A stretch of 64,000 nucleotides of DNA, taken from contig JASCOE010000002.1 in assembly GCA_029959285.1 (NCBI GenBank), forward strand, positions 186,001-250,000. The letters run 5' to 3'. Shown here piece after piece: positions 58,461 through 64,000 of this stretch. Under the pieces are notes generated by a model. That model searched no databases. It was given only the letters and a program-made list of their open reading frames with translations, and had not been told where the DNA came from. Source of the stretch: Flavobacteriaceae bacterium PS02337 (GTDB lineage Bacteria > Bacteroidota > Bacteroidia > Flavobacteriales > Flavobacteriaceae). How positions within the stretch are numbered: position 1 is the first letter of the stretch; each line of letters starts with the position of its first letter. A program made the position numbers and the translations under genes.

Positions 58461-58964
58461 TTAATTTAACTTCTTAACATTACTATCATCAATGTTATAT
58501 CTTTTAATAACTTCATTATAATTTGAATAATCAGGTTTATTAGCTGATTTTCCAAAAACAGTTCCTGGAATAATAACTACTCTAAAAGTTTTATTATTTG
58601 TAAATGAAGCAGGCAATGAACTCAATGTAAGATTAGAGTCAATAAAAATTGAAAATTGATCAAATGAAAAATCAAAATTATATTGTGCTGTTCCATTATT
58701 GAAATAATAAACTTGAGGCAAAAGTGCCCAAGTATCTATCCCATTATTTGTATTAACTAATTCATATACCAAAATGTTATCATTAACACCTATTACTGGA
58801 TTCAAAACAAAAGTTCTTCCATAATTATTAGCACTAGTAAAATCGAAGGTAACTTCAAAAATTTCATTAGCATCGCCATCTCTTCCTGGAGGTCCTTCCG
58901 GTCCTTCACAACTCGAAAATGCAATTAAACCAATAACTGCAAATAGTGTAAGTATCTTTTTCAT
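58461..58964 (-). CDS. Lipoprotein with a short collagen-like segment
   Basis: A 167-residue lipoprotein (lipobox FSSC). Immediately after the lipid Cys comes a short run of GXX triplets (GPEGPPGRDGDAN), as in many short Bacteroidota collagen-like lipoproteins, then a beta-rich domain (EIFEVTFDFTSANNYGRTF, NVVIPGTVFGKS-like end). Function unknown. Confidence 0.75.
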   Translation of the reverse strand: MKKILTLFAVIGLIAFSSCEGPEGPPGRDGDANEIFEVTFDFTSANNYGRTFVLNPVIGVNDNILVYELVNTNNGIDTWALLPQVYYFNNGTAQYNFDFSFDQFSIFIDSNLTLSSLPASFTNNKTFRVVIIPGTVFGKSANKPDYSNYNEVIKRYNIDDSNVKKLN

Positions 58965-59055: not shown

Positions 59056-59925
59056 TTATTTTTTTGCAGTTACCTGATTTTTAAGCAATATTTTATTGAA
59101 AAATAACACATGATACGGTAATGAGTTTTCCCAATAATCCCAAGTATGTGCTCCTGGACGTTCTGTATAATCGTGATCTACTTTCGTATACACCAATCTT
59201 CTGTGTAATTCTCTATTTGGTTCAATTAAAAAATCATCAACCCCGCAATCTATAACCAAAGGAAGTTTGTTGGCTTTTAATTTATCAATCATTCCTAACA
59301 CGGCATGTTGTTCATACAATTCTGTGCTTCCGCTTCTGTCTCCAAAAACAGGTTGCATTAATTTAACAACTTGCGCAGAAGAATCTCTATTCAACATTAC
59401 ACTCATATCTACAGCGCCGCTCATACTTCCAGCCGCGCAAAATAAATCTGGATGTTTCGCAGATAAATACAAAGCGCCGTGTCCGCCCATAGAAAGACCT
59501 GTAATTACTCTTCCGTTTTTATTGGCAATTGTTCTGTACGTTTTATCTACTTTTTGAATAACTTCTTGAGTTATAAAAGTCTCAAACTGACTTTCTTTGT
59601 TTACCGGACTATCCAAATAAAAACTAAACGTTTCTCCTTCTGGCATTACAATAATCATATTATACTGATCTGCAAGATTGTGCACTAATTTTTTATTTGG
59701 AGTATTTTTAAGCCAATCGCTAAAATGTCCGTAAGCTCCGTGCAATAAATACATTACAGGATAAATCGTTTTACCTTTAGTATAAGAATTTGGCAACACA
59801 ACAGCAGCTTTATAGGTTTTACCCATTGCTGTGCTCGCAACTTGTAAAGTGTCTACTTTTGCTGCGTATGTCATGGTGGTAAGACAAAGCAAAAATGCAG
59901 ACAACAGCATTTTAAATTTTTTCAT
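59056..59925 (-). CDS. Exported esterase (esterase D/feruloyl esterase-like alpha/beta hydrolase)
   Basis: A 289-residue alpha/beta hydrolase, signal peptide ending near TYAAK. The nucleophile Ser145 is in GLSMGGHG; the Asp and His triad partners are DCGVDDFL (about 225) and RPGAHTWDYW (about 262). The YPVMYLLHGAYGHFSDW region is typical of esterase D/tributyrin esterase-type enzymes. Substrate unknown; acetyl or feruloyl esters of polysaccharides are plausible. Confidence 0.87.
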   Translation of the reverse strand: MKKFKMLLSAFLLCLTTMTYAAKVDTLQVASTAMGKTYKAAVVLPNSYTKGKTIYPVMYLLHGAYGHFSDWLKNTPNKKLVHNLADQYNMIIVMPEGETFSFYLDSPVNKESQFETFITQEVIQKVDKTYRTIANKNGRVITGLSMGGHGALYLSAKHPDLFCAAGSMSGAVDMSVMLNRDSSAQVVKLMQPVFGDRSGSTELYEQHAVLGMIDKLKANKLPLVIDCGVDDFLIEPNRELHRRLVYTKVDHDYTERPGAHTWDYWENSLPYHVLFFNKILLKNQVTAKK

Positions 59926-60017
59926 TTTATGTTTTTTTTCTGATTACGGAATGTAAATATAACTTTTTTCAGAATAGCATATATGAAAAATCCGACCTTG
60001 ATTAACGCTAAAAGAAA

Positions 60018-60166
60018 TAGCCACAAATTCACGAATTTCATTATTGAGTGATTTGATCAGAAATGAATTTCGTCAATTGATTAGTAATAATCAGTGTAAT
60101 TCGTACAAGACAAAAAAAGCCACGAATTCATGAATTTATTTAATATTAATTCGTGAATTCGTGGCT
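60018..60166. repeat. GCCACGAATT inverted repeat
   Basis: The right part (60119-60166) is a near-perfect foldback with arms GCCACGAATTCATGAATT and AATTCGTGAATTCGTGGC. A degenerate copy of the arm is at 60018-60045. The element lies between the esterase and AraC genes. Confidence 0.65.
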
Positions 60167-60187
60167 AAAAATCTTTTAAATAATTAA

Positions 60188-61057
60188 TTAGCTAATTATA
60201 ATCTTATGTTCGTGACGGTATTGCGAAGCACTTTTACCTGTATATTGTTTGAATGATTTACTGAAATGGCTAAAATTGTTAAAACCACTTTCGTAACAAA
60301 CCTCATTAATACTCATTGGCTGTTCTGCTAAAAGTTTAGATGCGTGCACCAATCTGTATTCATTTACAAACTCTGTAAATGTTTTGTTTGAAATCTTTTT
60401 AAAATATCGACAGAACGAAGGCGTAGTCATACTTACCAAACTCGAAACTTCGTCTATAGAAATTGATTCTTGAAAATGATCTTTCACAAAATTAAAAACC
60501 ACATTTATACGATCGTTATCTTGAGTTTGAAGTTCTAATGAAAATCCGTCGGCATTTAAAATGGTATAATCCTCAGCCGATTCCAATTCGTCTAAAACAC
60601 TCAAAAGTGTCATAAGACGTTGAAACGGAGGTTCATTTTCCATCATTTCAATTTTTTTTCCAATACGTTTTTTTGTTTCACCTCCAAAAGCGATTCCGCC
60701 TTTAGCTTGGTTCAAAATATTCTGAACTCTTTTCATTTCTGGAGCAACAAAAAAGTCACTTCCTAAAAATTCAGGTTTTATATGAATAACAGTTTCTGTT
60801 GTATTTCCTGTTTGTTCATTTGTAAAACCGCAATGCGGCAAATTAGCTCCTATTAAAAGTAAACTACCATTGGTATAATAAGAAACATGGCTTCCTATTT
60901 GTCTCTTCCCTGCCCCACCATTAATATATACCAACTCGATCTCTGGATGATAATGCCATAAATGAGCTTTGCTATTGGTCTTTTCGGCGTGTTTAGCGTA
61001 GGTAAAAGAACTTCCGTATGAGTTAGTTATCACTTCAAGAGCTGGGGCAATTGTCTT
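60188..61057 (-). CDS. AraC family transcription regulator with cupin domain
   Basis: A 289-residue regulator. The N-terminal cupin has AHLWHYHPEIELVYINGGAGKRQIGSH; the C-terminal AraC DNA-binding domain (about 190-285) has VSSLVSMTTPSFCRYFKKIS and INEVCYESGFNNFSHFSKSFK with the typical PxxYR-like end (SASQYRHEH). ATG at 61057 (MKTIAPALEV) is preferred over an upstream ATG at 61102, as the extra 15 residues are hydrophobic and non-conserved. A 39-bp motif 60 bp upstream, also present before the three tandem paralogs, suggests that it regulates itself and them. Confidence 0.9.
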   Translation of the reverse strand, partial: KTIAPALEVITNSYGSSFTYAKHAEKTNSKAHLWHYHPEIELVYINGGAGKRQIGSHVSYYTNGSLLLIGANLPHCGFTNEQTGNTTETVIHIKPEFLGSDFFVAPEMKRVQNILNQAKGGIAFGGETKKRIGKKIEMMENEPPFQRLMTLLSVLDELESAEDYTILNADGFSLELQTQDNDRINVVFNFVKDHFQESISIDEVSSLVSMTTPSFCRYFKKISNKTFTEFVNEYRLVHASKLLAEQPMSINEVCYESGFNNFSHFSKSFKQYTGKSASQYRHEHKIIIS

Positions 61058-61117
61058 CATGATAATTTCTTTAAAAAATAATAGCAAATTTAACAAAAAC
61101 ACCTAAAATAATTTAAA

Positions 61118-61156
61118 TTTTAACCTATAACGGTTTCGTAAATGAGAATTTTGCAT
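61118..61156 (+). promoter_or_regulatory. 39-bp motif copy 0 (araC side)
   Basis: Contains AACCTATAACGGTT followed by TCGTAAATGAGAA. It differs from copies 1-2 at two positions near its end (TTTTGCAT instead of TATAGCAT). 60 bp upstream of the araC ATG. Confidence 0.7.
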
Positions 61157-61380
61157 TAAAATTCAACATTTTACACTGATGATTTTTCATCAAAACAGAC
61201 ATTTTTTTAGAGTCTCGTTTTTTTCTTTCACTTTTTTTTAAGAAATCATATTTTAAAGTGTGATTTTATACCGATATGGTATTTTTTGTAGGAAAGAAGG
61301 AAATTTTAAGAAGAATCAAATTTTGAATAAACTTTGAAAAATAACAACCAAATTAACAGAAACATAACATTAAACGCAAA

Positions 61381-61419
61381 TTTTAACCTATAACGGTTTC
61401 GTAAATGAGAATATAGCAT
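61381..61419 (+). promoter_or_regulatory. 39-bp motif copy 1 (paralog 1)
   Basis: Same core AACCTATAACGGTT. Its end is exactly 45 bp from the -7 box start of paralog 1. Confidence 0.75.
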
Positions 61420-61463
61420 AGAAATTGGAAAATATAGTTGTTAAAATAACACACATGCTGCTA

Positions 61464-61471
61464 TAACTTTG
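61464..61471 (+). promoter_or_regulatory. -7 box TAACTTTG of paralog 1
   Basis: A perfect TAnnTTTG box, 46 bp before the ATG. A TTG (61438-61440) is 23 bp upstream. Confidence 0.55.
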
Positions 61472-61509
61472 CCTCAGAGAATTGAAACAAAAATTTAAAC
61501 ACTAAGAAT

Positions 61510-61875
61510 ATGAAAAAGATTATGAAATTAAGTTTAGTATGTGCGGTACTTTTAACTGGAATGAGTACTTATGCAATTGATGGAAATGAAGCATTAAATC
61601 TTCATGTATTAAAAGGAAATGGCAAGGTTATTGCATTTGGAATTAATCAGATTCAAAAAGCTGTTATCAGCATCTATGATACTAATGGTAATTTAATCTA
61701 CACTGAAAATGCTTCTGGAAAGGAAGGAATTTTAAGAACTTTCAGTTTAGAAGAATTTCCACAAGGAAAATATATCTTAGAAGTTGCTGACAATTACAAA
61801 AAAGTAAAATACGATATTACTGTAGATGCTAAGAATTCAATTTTGTCTTCTAAAGGAGTTTCTTCAGTAAACTAA
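61510..61875 (+). CDS. Small secreted beta-sandwich protein, paralog 1
   Basis: A 121-residue exported protein: signal peptide to TYA, then one domain of about 90 residues. The domain has AVISIYDTNGNLIYTENASG and GILRTFSLEEFPQGKYILEV, strand patterns typical of T9SS C-terminal sorting domains and DUF3244-like beta-sandwiches. There is no catalytic motif. The C-terminus is shorter than in paralogs 2 and 3. Function unknown; it may be a secreted or surface adhesin-like domain. First of three tandem copies. Confidence 0.75.
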   Translation: MKKIMKLSLVCAVLLTGMSTYAIDGNEALNLHVLKGNGKVIAFGINQIQKAVISIYDTNGNLIYTENASGKEGILRTFSLEEFPQGKYILEVADNYKKVKYDITVDAKNSILSSKGVSSVN

Positions 61876-61987
61876 GAAAATATTAAAGTTAAGTGCTACT
61901 CTTCACGGCACTTAAAAATTTTATACTCTAATACAGTATAAAAAGTGAGGTTAGATAGTTAGTAAGTTAAAAACTTTCAAAAGTTTT

Positions 61988-62025
61988 AAAAACAGCTCTT
62001 TGTGGTTACTGAGCTGTTTTTTTTT
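61988..62025 (+). terminator. Terminator of paralog 1
   Basis: AACAGCTC and GAGCTGTT arms around a 12-nt loop, then a T run. The loop is identical in paralog 2. Confidence 0.8.
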
Positions 62026-62043
62026 GCTTTATACTTTTTTAAA

Positions 62044-62226
62044 GATTCTAAGGTTCTGAGATGCTAAGCTTCTAAGTTTTTTAGTTTATTATTTTCCTTT
62101 ACTCTTATATATAAATATGTATTCTTGACAAACCGAATGTTACACACAATTGCATTGTGTCTCTACCATTATATTCACAAAAGAAAAATCTCAGAACCTC
62201 AGCATCTCAGAACCTTAGAACCTTTT
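62044..62226. repeat. Inverted pair of octamer arrays (CTAAG/CTTAG type)
   Basis: The left array (62044-62083) has CTAAGGTT, CTGAGATG, CTAAGCTT and CTAAGTTT; the right array (62189-62226) is inverted with TCTCAGAA and CCTTAGAA units. About 105 bp of AT-rich DNA lies between. Confidence 0.7.
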
Positions 62227-62336
62227 TACCTATTCTTACATTTTTAAAGAAATTGTTATCTAAACATAAATTAAAAAATAAGAAAAACGTTGAAAAATAA
62301 TAACCGAATTAACGAAAAAGATAAATATAATTCAAA

Positions 62337-62375
62337 TTTTAACCTATAACGGTTTCGTAAATGAGAATATAGCAT
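62337..62375 (+). promoter_or_regulatory. 39-bp motif copy 2 (paralog 2)
   Basis: Identical core to copy 1; its end is 45 bp from the -7 box of paralog 2. Confidence 0.75.
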
Positions 62376-62419
62376 CGAAATAGGAAAACACAGGATATAA
62401 AATATTCTGACAACTGAAG

Positions 62420-62427
62420 TAATTTAG
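62420..62427 (+). promoter_or_regulatory. -7 box TAATTTAG of paralog 2
   Basis: A TAnnTTnG-like box, 48 bp before the ATG. It is in the same position relative to the 39-bp motif as in paralogs 1 and 3. Confidence 0.45.
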
Positions 62428-62467
62428 CATCAGAGAATTAGAACTATTAATTTAAAAATTAAGTCCC

Positions 62468-62872
62468 ATGAAAAAGATTGCAAAAATTAGTTTAGTAGCA
62501 GCGTTGCTTTTTACAGGAATTAGCACTTACGCAATTGATGGAACGTCGGAGTTTAATCTTCACGTATTAAAGGCAAATGGTAAATTGATCACGTTCGGTC
62601 TTAACCAAACACAAAAAGCCAACTTATCAATTTATGATAAAGAAGGAACTTTAATTTATTCTGAAACTGCTTCTGGTAAAGATGGCATTTTAAGAACATT
62701 TAGTTTAGAAGAATTTCCAGAAGGAACTTATTTCTTAGAAGTAGAAAACAATACAAAAAAAGCAAAATACGAAATCACTGTAACCGACGAAGTAACTGTT
62801 TTATCTAAAAACGCAGTTTCTACAGTTTACAAATCAAGTTTTGCAAAAAATACTAGTGTGGCAACACGCTAA
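62468..62872 (+). CDS. Small secreted beta-sandwich protein, paralog 2
   Basis: A 134-residue exported paralog. Signal peptide to TYA, then domain with ANLSIYDKEGTLIYSETASG and GILRTFSLEEFPEGTYFLEV. It is about 62% identical to paralog 1 and clearly closer to paralog 3. The C-terminal extension VYKSSFAKNTSVATR is absent in paralog 1. No enzyme motif. Confidence 0.75.
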   Translation: MKKIAKISLVAALLFTGISTYAIDGTSEFNLHVLKANGKLITFGLNQTQKANLSIYDKEGTLIYSETASGKDGILRTFSLEEFPEGTYFLEVENNTKKAKYEITVTDEVTVLSKNAVSTVYKSSFAKNTSVATR

Positions 62873-62947
62873 AAAATTTTTATACTCTCATACAGTATAA
62901 AAAGTGAGGTTAGATAGTTAGTAAAGTTTAAAAACTTTTAAAGTTTT

Positions 62948-62984
62948 AAAAACAGCTCTTTGTGGTTACTGAGCTGTTTTTTTT
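62948..62984 (+). terminator. Terminator of paralog 2
   Basis: AACAGCTC and GAGCTGTT arms, the same 12-nt loop as in paralog 1, then a T run. Confidence 0.8.
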
Positions 62985-63002
62985 GTTTTAAACTTTTTTA
63001 TT

Positions 63003-63154
63003 TAACCGCAAAGACGCAAGTTTTTTTCAAAGATTATAATATAAACGCAAAGTTCGCAAAGCTTTATCTATATAGCTTTGCGAACTTTTATTCTATAGAA
63101 TTTACTCAAAAAATTTAGTGTGCTTTGCGTAAATCTTAGCGCACTTTGCGTTAA
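63003..63154. repeat. GCAAAG-type inverted repeat
   Basis: Units such as CGCAAAGTTCGCAAAGCT (63045-63062) face AGCTTTGCGAACTTT (63073-63087), with outer AACCGCAAAGACGC and GCACTTTGCGTT arms. This is a dispersed intergenic family in Bacteroidota. Confidence 0.65.
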
Positions 63155-63263
63155 AACCACAAAATAATATGTAAATAAATTCTTAAGCCGATGTAAAGCT
63201 AAAATCAAGCGAAACATTAAAAAATAACAAACGAATTAACAAAAACGTTAAATATAATTCAGT

Positions 63264-63302
63264 TTTTAACCTATAACGGTTTTGTAAATGAGAATATAGC
63301 AT
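63264..63302 (+). promoter_or_regulatory. 39-bp motif copy 3 (paralog 3)
   Basis: Same core with one change (GGTTTTGT for GGTTTCGT). Its end is 45 bp from the -7 box of paralog 3. Confidence 0.75.
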
Positions 63303-63346
63303 ATAAATAAGAGAATACAGTTGCGTTTTTTTACGCATATCATAAC

Positions 63347-63354
63347 TAATTTAG
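63347..63354 (+). promoter_or_regulatory. -7 box TAATTTAG of paralog 3
   Basis: Same box as paralog 2, 48 bp before the ATG, with a TTG 23 bp upstream (63321-63323). Confidence 0.45.
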
Positions 63355-63394
63355 CATCAGAGAATTAGAACTAATAATTTAAAAATTAAGTCCC

Positions 63395-63793
63395 ATGAAA
63401 AAGATTGCAAAAATTTTAGTAGTAGCGTTGCTTTTCACAGGAATAAGCACATACGCAATTGACGGAACGTCGGAGTTTAACCTTCACGTATTGAAAGCTA
63501 ATGGAAAACTGATCACTTTCGCTCTTAACAAAGTACAGAAAGCCAACTTAGCAATTTACGACAAAGACGGAACACTTATTTATTCTGAAAGCGCTTCGGG
63601 TAAAGACGGAATATTAAGAACTTTCAGTTTAGAAGAATTTCCAGAAGGAACTTATTTCTTAGAAGTAGAAGACAACGTAAAGAGAGCAAAATATGAAATT
63701 ACAATAAAAGAAAATGCTTCTTTATCTAAAAATGCAGTTTCTTCAGTTTACAAAGCTGGTTTTGCTAGAAACACAAATGTTGCTGCACGTTAA
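63395..63793 (+). CDS. Small secreted beta-sandwich protein, paralog 3
   Basis: A 132-residue exported paralog, about 85% like paralog 2: ANLAIYDKDGTLIYSESASG and GILRTFSLEEFPEGTYFLEV, with C-terminus VYKAGFARNTNVAAR. Signal peptide to TYA. No enzyme motif. It ends the tandem series in this window; more copies may lie beyond 64000. Confidence 0.75.
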   Translation: MKKIAKILVVALLFTGISTYAIDGTSEFNLHVLKANGKLITFALNKVQKANLAIYDKDGTLIYSESASGKDGILRTFSLEEFPEGTYFLEVEDNVKRAKYEITIKENASLSKNAVSSVYKAGFARNTNVAAR

Positions 63794-64000
63794 AAATTTA
63801 TGCTTTGAAAAAAGTATAAAACAAGGTTAAAAAAAATTAAAATTATTTTATTGTTTGAAGAAAAAGAACAGCTCTCGACGCTTACGGAGCTGTTTTTTTT
63901 ATGCCAAATTAAATGTGGTTTTTACACTAAATTACGTTTCTGAAAAAATATTCTTATTAATTCAACTCGTTGATTTTTAGGCATTAAAAAAATATTAAAA
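63794..64000 (+). other. 3' end of the window after paralog 3
   Basis: No gene is seen. It holds the paralog 3 3' UTR, which is unlike that of paralogs 1 and 2, and the terminator at 63866-63902. The remaining 98 bases are AT-rich with no recognisable element. Confidence 0.5.
63866..63902 (+). terminator. Terminator of paralog 3
   Basis: AACAGCTC and GAGCTGTT arms with a different 12-nt loop from that of the other two, then a T run. Confidence 0.8.

Follow-up and report, generated by a model that had tools for sequence, protein, structure and literature searches.

Does a 39-bp motif that stands upstream of an AraC-family gene, and again upstream of each of three small-protein genes divergent from it, mark a regulatory unit, and if so, of what kind? 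The locus lies in the window, by which we mean the whole 64,000-nucleotide stretch that was analysed (G000:C22:186001-250000 of a 5.7-Mb genome with relatives in Flavobacterium), and its features are collected in Table 1; the signal-peptide-like starts of the three targets listed there were judged by eye. A sequence-only reading had taken the regulator, the motif as its operator, and three secreted proteins for one compact unit. A conserved unit is indeed found across loci, whereas the number of targets is not a fixed part of it: the three genes are an expansion of a mostly one-target divergent unit. We consider it probable, at roughly four in five, that the locus is an autoregulated and probably activating AraC-type divergon with a tandemly duplicated target.

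Table 1. Coordinates of the regulator gene, predicted control elements, and target genes in the window.
Feature	Position	Strand	Remarks
AraC/XylS-family regulator, 290 aa, N-terminal cupin-like domain and C-terminal HTH	60188..61060	-	HTH_18, HTH_AraC scores
Inferred araC -7 box, TAAATTTG on - strand	61085..61092	-	59 bp from site anchor, as in 77/77 clade copies
Operator copy 1, araC side	61118..61156	.	First half intact, second half degenerate
Spacer, copy 1 to copy 2	61157..61380	.	Motif-to-motif 263 bp; moderately conserved T-tracts
Operator copy 2	61381..61432	+	39-bp motif and conserved extension to GAAAA
Target 1 -7 box, TAACTTTG	61464..61471	+	57 bp from anchor 61407
Target 1, 121 aa, signal-peptide-like start, DUF3244 / T9SS-tail-like domain	61510..61875	+	
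Terminator-like hairpin AACAGCTC..GAGCTGTT, then T-run, after target 1	61988..62024	+	Repeat family D3; absent from a terminator scan restricted to loops of 3-8 bases
Operator copy 3	62337..62388	+	
Target 2 -7 box, TAATTTAG	62420..62427	+	57 bp from anchor 62363
Target 2, 134 aa, signal-peptide-like start	62468..62872	+	
Terminator-like hairpin after target 2	62948..62984	+	Same sequence as target 1 hairpin
Operator copy 4	63264..63315	+	
Target 3 -7 box, TAATTTAG	63347..63354	+	57 bp from anchor 63290
Target 3, 132 aa, signal-peptide-like start	63395..63793	+	
Terminator-like hairpin after target 3	63864..63900	+	81% identical to target 1 hairpin

The paralogy of the three target genes extends to their upstream regions (repeat families D1 and D2). 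A fourth, distant paralog (40% identity) begins just beyond the window end, from G000:C22:250179 onward (L005:6180-6566), and no motif copy was found upstream of it. Targets 1 and 2 are each followed, ahead of the terminator-like hairpin, by a 79-nt stretch that is 81% conserved (61914-61992 and 62873-62951), and intergenic inverted repeats occur at 62041-62225, 63040-63152, and 60018-60167, with, for example, 47-nt arms of 85% complementarity. A search for RNA elements across 59900-64000 returned four matches at E up to 1 and none at gathering score, while a sigma-70 promoter scan, which is uninformative in this phylum, found 16 sites versus 20.3 expected. On the far side of the regulator, a lipoprotein-like gene (58461-58964) shows 31-76% identity among related loci, compared with mostly 78-99% for its esterase and AraC neighbours, and is apparently fast evolving.

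The four motif copies begin exactly where the sequence-only reading had placed them, with the core AACCTATAACGGTT at 61122, 61385, 62341, and 63268 on the + strand, and they are as close to identical as it had claimed (pairwise 92-100% over 39 nt). The motif stands out because identity falls to 21-45% at core positions 49-78 (29 nt) and to 53-76% over the 66 nt before it; among the three targets, identity returns to 69-94% at core positions 78-110, where the -7 box and leader lie. A genome-wide search, which had been proposed as a check, yielded four matches in 5.7 Mb, whether no mismatch or up to 3 were allowed over 28 nt; a reversed-control search on the same terms yielded none. Occurrences at unrelated promoters, which would have told against a dedicated operator, were absent from the genome in searches with this 28-mer and with a 24-mer from the second half of the site. 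A wider regulon in the same genome was thus considered and set aside, each pattern matching the cluster alone at up to 3 mismatches; since the 24-mer reached just two of the three target copies, weaker genomic sites could be missed. The motif is therefore real, but its 39 bp do not delimit the operator: in the target copies, conservation extends to core position 48 (GAAAA), and the motif is part of a predicted operator of about 50 bp with two halves.

To place the locus among its relatives, we searched a collection of one genome per species (84,980 species) with the second target as query and took the best 80 of 87 relatives, which gave 77 loci, two of them from one genome split into contigs, or 78 with our own. 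The AraC gene, the site, and tandem targets occur together in 76 of the 77 related loci, the exception being a locus at a contig start that is without araC. The unit is also carried by Flavobacterium johnsoniae strain CI04 (L034). Assigning a copy to araC if it lay within 110 bp of that gene and to a target if it lay 60-240 bp before one, we counted 297 motif copies in the 78 loci (74 araC-only, 220 target-only, and 3 shared), which are best not taken as independent events because the copies are related by descent, both within a species and between species. Distances from copy to ATG are tightly held, at 61-65 bp for araC (77/77) and 125-130 bp for targets (223/223). In the window itself, the copy said to lie 60 bp before the AraC start is near that gene as claimed, but the distance, counted to the first base of its ATG (61060), is 58 bp. 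Each locus has one to six motif-bearing targets, three being the number in 58 of 78, and 75 of the 78 have a further, motif-less paralog whose closest counterpart among the three targets is 35-53% identical.

Across 300 Flavobacterium genomes, the motif (up to 3 mismatches) is present in 57, an AraC orthologue (E 1e-60 or better) in 111, and a target relative (E 1e-5) in 114. The 57 genomes with the motif are the same 57 that encode an AraC of at least 78% identity, as judged by comparing the lists by eye. All of the remaining 54 AraC-bearing genomes have a divergent target-like gene (weak, at 28%, in one), and the region between araC and target measures 179-203 bp in 48 of them; in those intergenic regions a diverged site can be aligned, for example AACCTAAAACGTTTTCGTAAAAGGTAATATAGCAT. 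One shared site is thus probably the older state. Four genomes have a target without an AraC match: three of these carry a target of the distant type with neither AraC orthologue nor site, and the fourth is a contig edge bearing an AraC fragment and the site. In G162, where the motif matched on two contigs, the best reading is one cluster broken at contig ends.

Beyond the genus, an AraC relative (E 1e-50) was found in 210 of 349 genomes of the family. We examined 67 loci from other genera, not as a random draw but as the 27 best returned as loci plus 40 hand-picked at 49-59% identity, and found a divergent candidate target gene in 66, L296 being the exception. The site in these loci is GTTAAAATAGCACAnAAATnGGAAAA, which matches the second half of the window operator; no convincing site was found in two of the 67 (L265 and L267). 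In a second family (L315-L326), the same layout was seen in 12 of 12 loci examined, of 18 listed; the target frame beside araC is interrupted in L324. A survey of the class matched 15 of 295 genomes, and eight loci from further families were examined. Where AraC identity was 43-64% (four loci), a gene of 153-198 aa stands divergent from araC, and three of these loci also show the site with a -7 box 57 bp away; in the other four, from two families and with AraC homologues at 38-42%, we found no gene of the target kind and no site.

The geometry of the site relative to both promoters was assessed with an anchor set from the site alone and the -7 box pattern TAnnTTTG, exact or with one mismatch. 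The distance of 45 bp from motif end to -7 box that had been reported for all three targets was recovered at each of them. Across the wider set, a target -7 box lies at 57 bp, allowing one mismatch, in 217/218 distinct clade copies, 50/54 loci from the rest of Flavobacterium, and 59/67 loci of other genera (65/67 if 58 bp is also accepted), compared with means over other offsets of 3.06, 0.38, and 0.43, respectively. The exact pattern stands at 57 bp in 25/218, 25/54, and 50/67 of the same sets and in 12/12 loci of the second family. In the clade, a competing offset of 26 scores 137/218 at one mismatch because it falls inside the conserved operator. On the other side, an araC -7 box at 59 bp is found with one mismatch in 77/77 clade, 41/54 other Flavobacterium, and 37/67 other-genus loci, and exactly in 75/77, 35/54, and 31/67; offsets 41, 50, and 71 reach 60-68 of 77 in the clade at one mismatch, as the flanks are conserved, and at most 18 exactly. 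In other genera, a candidate at 92-93 bp occurs almost as often as one at 59; in the second family (n = 12) candidates lie at 38-39 bp in six loci, at 66-67 in four, and at 57 in one, with none found in the twelfth. Of the two distances, the one to the target box is therefore the firmer constant.

According to the available portions of two studies, the -7 box of F. johnsoniae begins at -12 (PMC6847099; likewise PMC9723704), which would place the target starts near 61476, 62432, and 63359 and the araC start near 61080. On this rule the operator stops some 44 bp short of the predicted target starts, with a half GAGAATATAGCATAnAAATnnGAAAA, and some 42 bp short of the predicted araC start, where the araC-adjacent half AACCTATAACGGTTTCG would begin. 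The placement of an activator near -33 that had been suggested for the targets does not hold, the site lying instead at about -44 to -91 from the predicted target start.

The two halves have fared differently in different copies. Identity to the consensus is 98% for the first half and 67% for the second in araC-side copies (n = 74), and 98% and 95% in target copies (n = 218). Likewise, a target -7 box at 57 (one mismatch) accompanies 3/74 araC-side copies versus 3/3 shared copies, and the exact araC -7 box at 59 accompanies no target-only copy versus 3/3 shared copies. From this pattern of retention, each duplicated copy would have kept the parts required by its own promoter. Only in Flavobacterium can the first half be recognised; elsewhere the site consists of the second half. 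Some other-genus loci have the start of the target frame 400-666 bp from araC, and in six of them (L281, L288, L290, L292, L294, and L295; 508-666 bp) the site occurs twice, about 110 bp from araC and again near the target, both sites having an exact TAnnTTTG at 57 bp and lying 370-520 bp apart. No sizeable reading frame was found between the two sites in these six loci, and the transcript of the first promoter may therefore be non-coding; possibly, this doubling of the operator is a second, separate one. In the window clade, the araC-side copy is followed by the next copy at 260-264 bp in 67 of 74 loci, while target-to-target distances range from 723 to 1847 bp. A distance of 260-264 bp, about 25 turns, would suit DNA looping, though the constant length may instead stem from conserved spacer sequence or ancestry. 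The spacer (61157-61380), which has conserved T-tracts and TGTAAGAA and is near-constant in length in related species, could also harbour a further element.

The C-terminal double HTH of the regulator scores well above the cut-offs (HTH_18, 73.8 bits vs 33.6; HTH_AraC, 56.8 vs 26.6), as in the AraC/XylS family (PF12833, PF00165), but unlike that family its N-terminal cupin falls below them (Cupin_2, 20.6 vs 27.2; AraC_binding, 17.0 vs 21.1). In an alignment of 210 loci, one of which is without araC, H36, H38, and H76 are invariant in 209/209 regulators and E42 is present in 207/209, a set of H-H-E-H that we take to be the metal-binding cupin pattern. These conserved cupin-like histidines suggest that the signal may be a metal or a metal-bound small molecule. 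The regulator is just distantly related to AraC-family members of solved structure: 13 distinct PDB sequences matched at E 1e-3 or better, the best being 3oou (2.3e-10), with E. coli AraC (2k9s) at 1.8e-4. None of the 25 NCBIfam models listed, of 34 matched, reached its cut-off. An AF2 model of the regulator (pLDDT 53.7) was too poor for use.

All three targets exceed the cut-off of 23 for TIGR04183, the T9SS type A C-terminal domain (26.1, 27.1, and 23.2 bits), and targets 1 and 2 exceed the gathering score of 25 for DUF3244 (PF11589; 26.3 and 29.3), with the third, at 22.1, below it. The TIGR04183 match starts at residue 36-38 and ends at 99/121, 100/134, and 96/132. Unlike type A tails, the domain stands directly behind the signal-peptide-like start, with 22-36 residues after it. 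A sorting tail behind cargo was accordingly rejected, as the domain is not at the extreme C-terminus and leaves no room for a cargo domain; since the domain is no tail on cargo, we do not claim the targets as T9SS substrates. Each target has one such domain, and one other-genus example has two. The AF2 model of target 2 has eight strands, with a mean pLDDT of 79 and blocks of residues 41-120 at 90-96, and forms an Ig-like beta-sandwich like the DUF3244 structures from Bacteroides to which it is closest, namely 4g5a (E 1.4e-3), 3sd2 (4.6e-3), and 3d33 (8.8e-3), weak matches at 13-19% identity. It also resembles, again weakly, chain D of the translocon with bound substrate (8glk, TMt 0.74, E 8.8e-3; 8gl8, TMt 0.63, E 7.1e-2); the available text of PMC10994853 names RemZ, Fjoh_0803, as the trapped substrate of the extended translocon of F. 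johnsoniae. No PDB fold matched the target 2 model at E 1e-3 or better, and a profile of the target family matched nothing among PDB sequences at E 0.1.

Could the four copies reflect something other than activation by the neighbouring AraC protein? The paralogy of the three targets and their upstream regions might suggest that the copies are a mere trace of recent duplication with no regulatory role, but the motif is far more identical than the sequence that follows it, and the site and its geometry persist in genera and families with a single target; on these two grounds we rule out recent duplication without function, leaving this explanation next to no probability. A more global regulator might instead bind the site, with araC a mere neighbour. 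A first half that differs between genera would fit such a regulator, which we nonetheless regard as highly unlikely: site and AraC orthologue are co-present or co-absent in the Flavobacterium sample, the gene divergent from the target is araC throughout the loci examined, and further sites, to be expected for a global regulator, were not found elsewhere in the genome with the two search patterns.

The AraC protein might also act on the same site mainly as a ligand-released repressor of the target and of itself, and conservation by itself cannot separate an activator from a repressor. A site between divergent promoters is a classical layout for repressors too, and the copy beside araC is close to that gene's promoter. 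The conserved block on the target side, in contrast, ends near -44, clear of the -7 box and the start as placed by the rule given in the available part of PMC6847099, and activation is described as the main mode among AraC-family regulators in the available part of PMC8151288. On balance, a mainly repressing regulator seems unlikely to us.

In the activating divergon that we favour, the AraC-family protein would bind an operator of about 50 bp composed of two different halves, most likely activating the target promoter, with its Bacteroidota-type -7 box, and would also control its own gene. The older unit probably had a single site shared by araC and one secreted-protein gene. In the window clade, target and promoter would then have multiplied by duplication to as many as six per cluster, with both halves kept in the target copies and the araC half alone in the araC-side copy. 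A more speculative extension, which we hold to be rather improbable, is a closed envelope-sensing loop in Bacteroidia, in which the target, as a stand-alone T9SS-tail-like module, would monitor or load the T9SS route or the surface and its level would feed back to the regulator, together with a DNA loop that in the window clade would join the operator beside araC to that of the first target, which in most species lie 263 bp (about 25 helical turns) apart.

AraC-family divergons are known from E. coli, in araC-araBAD and melR-melAB. Like these, the present locus has a regulator divergent from its target, a shared control region, and, as predicted here, control of the regulator's own gene; unlike these, it has Bacteroidota-type -7 boxes, its target is a small secreted protein and no sugar operon, and that target has been tandemly copied along with its operator. 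The kind of system is thus known, while this deeply conserved member was not found described: the accessible parts of the literature searched held no account of the present AraC/target unit. To our knowledge, known regulator binding sites are scarce in Flavobacteriales. In the present case, sequence comparison by itself yields a regulator, its likely site, both promoters, and a target, with a spacing from site to target promoter that is near base-pair exact between genera and families. The locus also offers a natural case in which the two halves of an operator parted roles after duplication, and a widespread, uncharacterised family of small secreted proteins becomes open to testing by way of its own switch.
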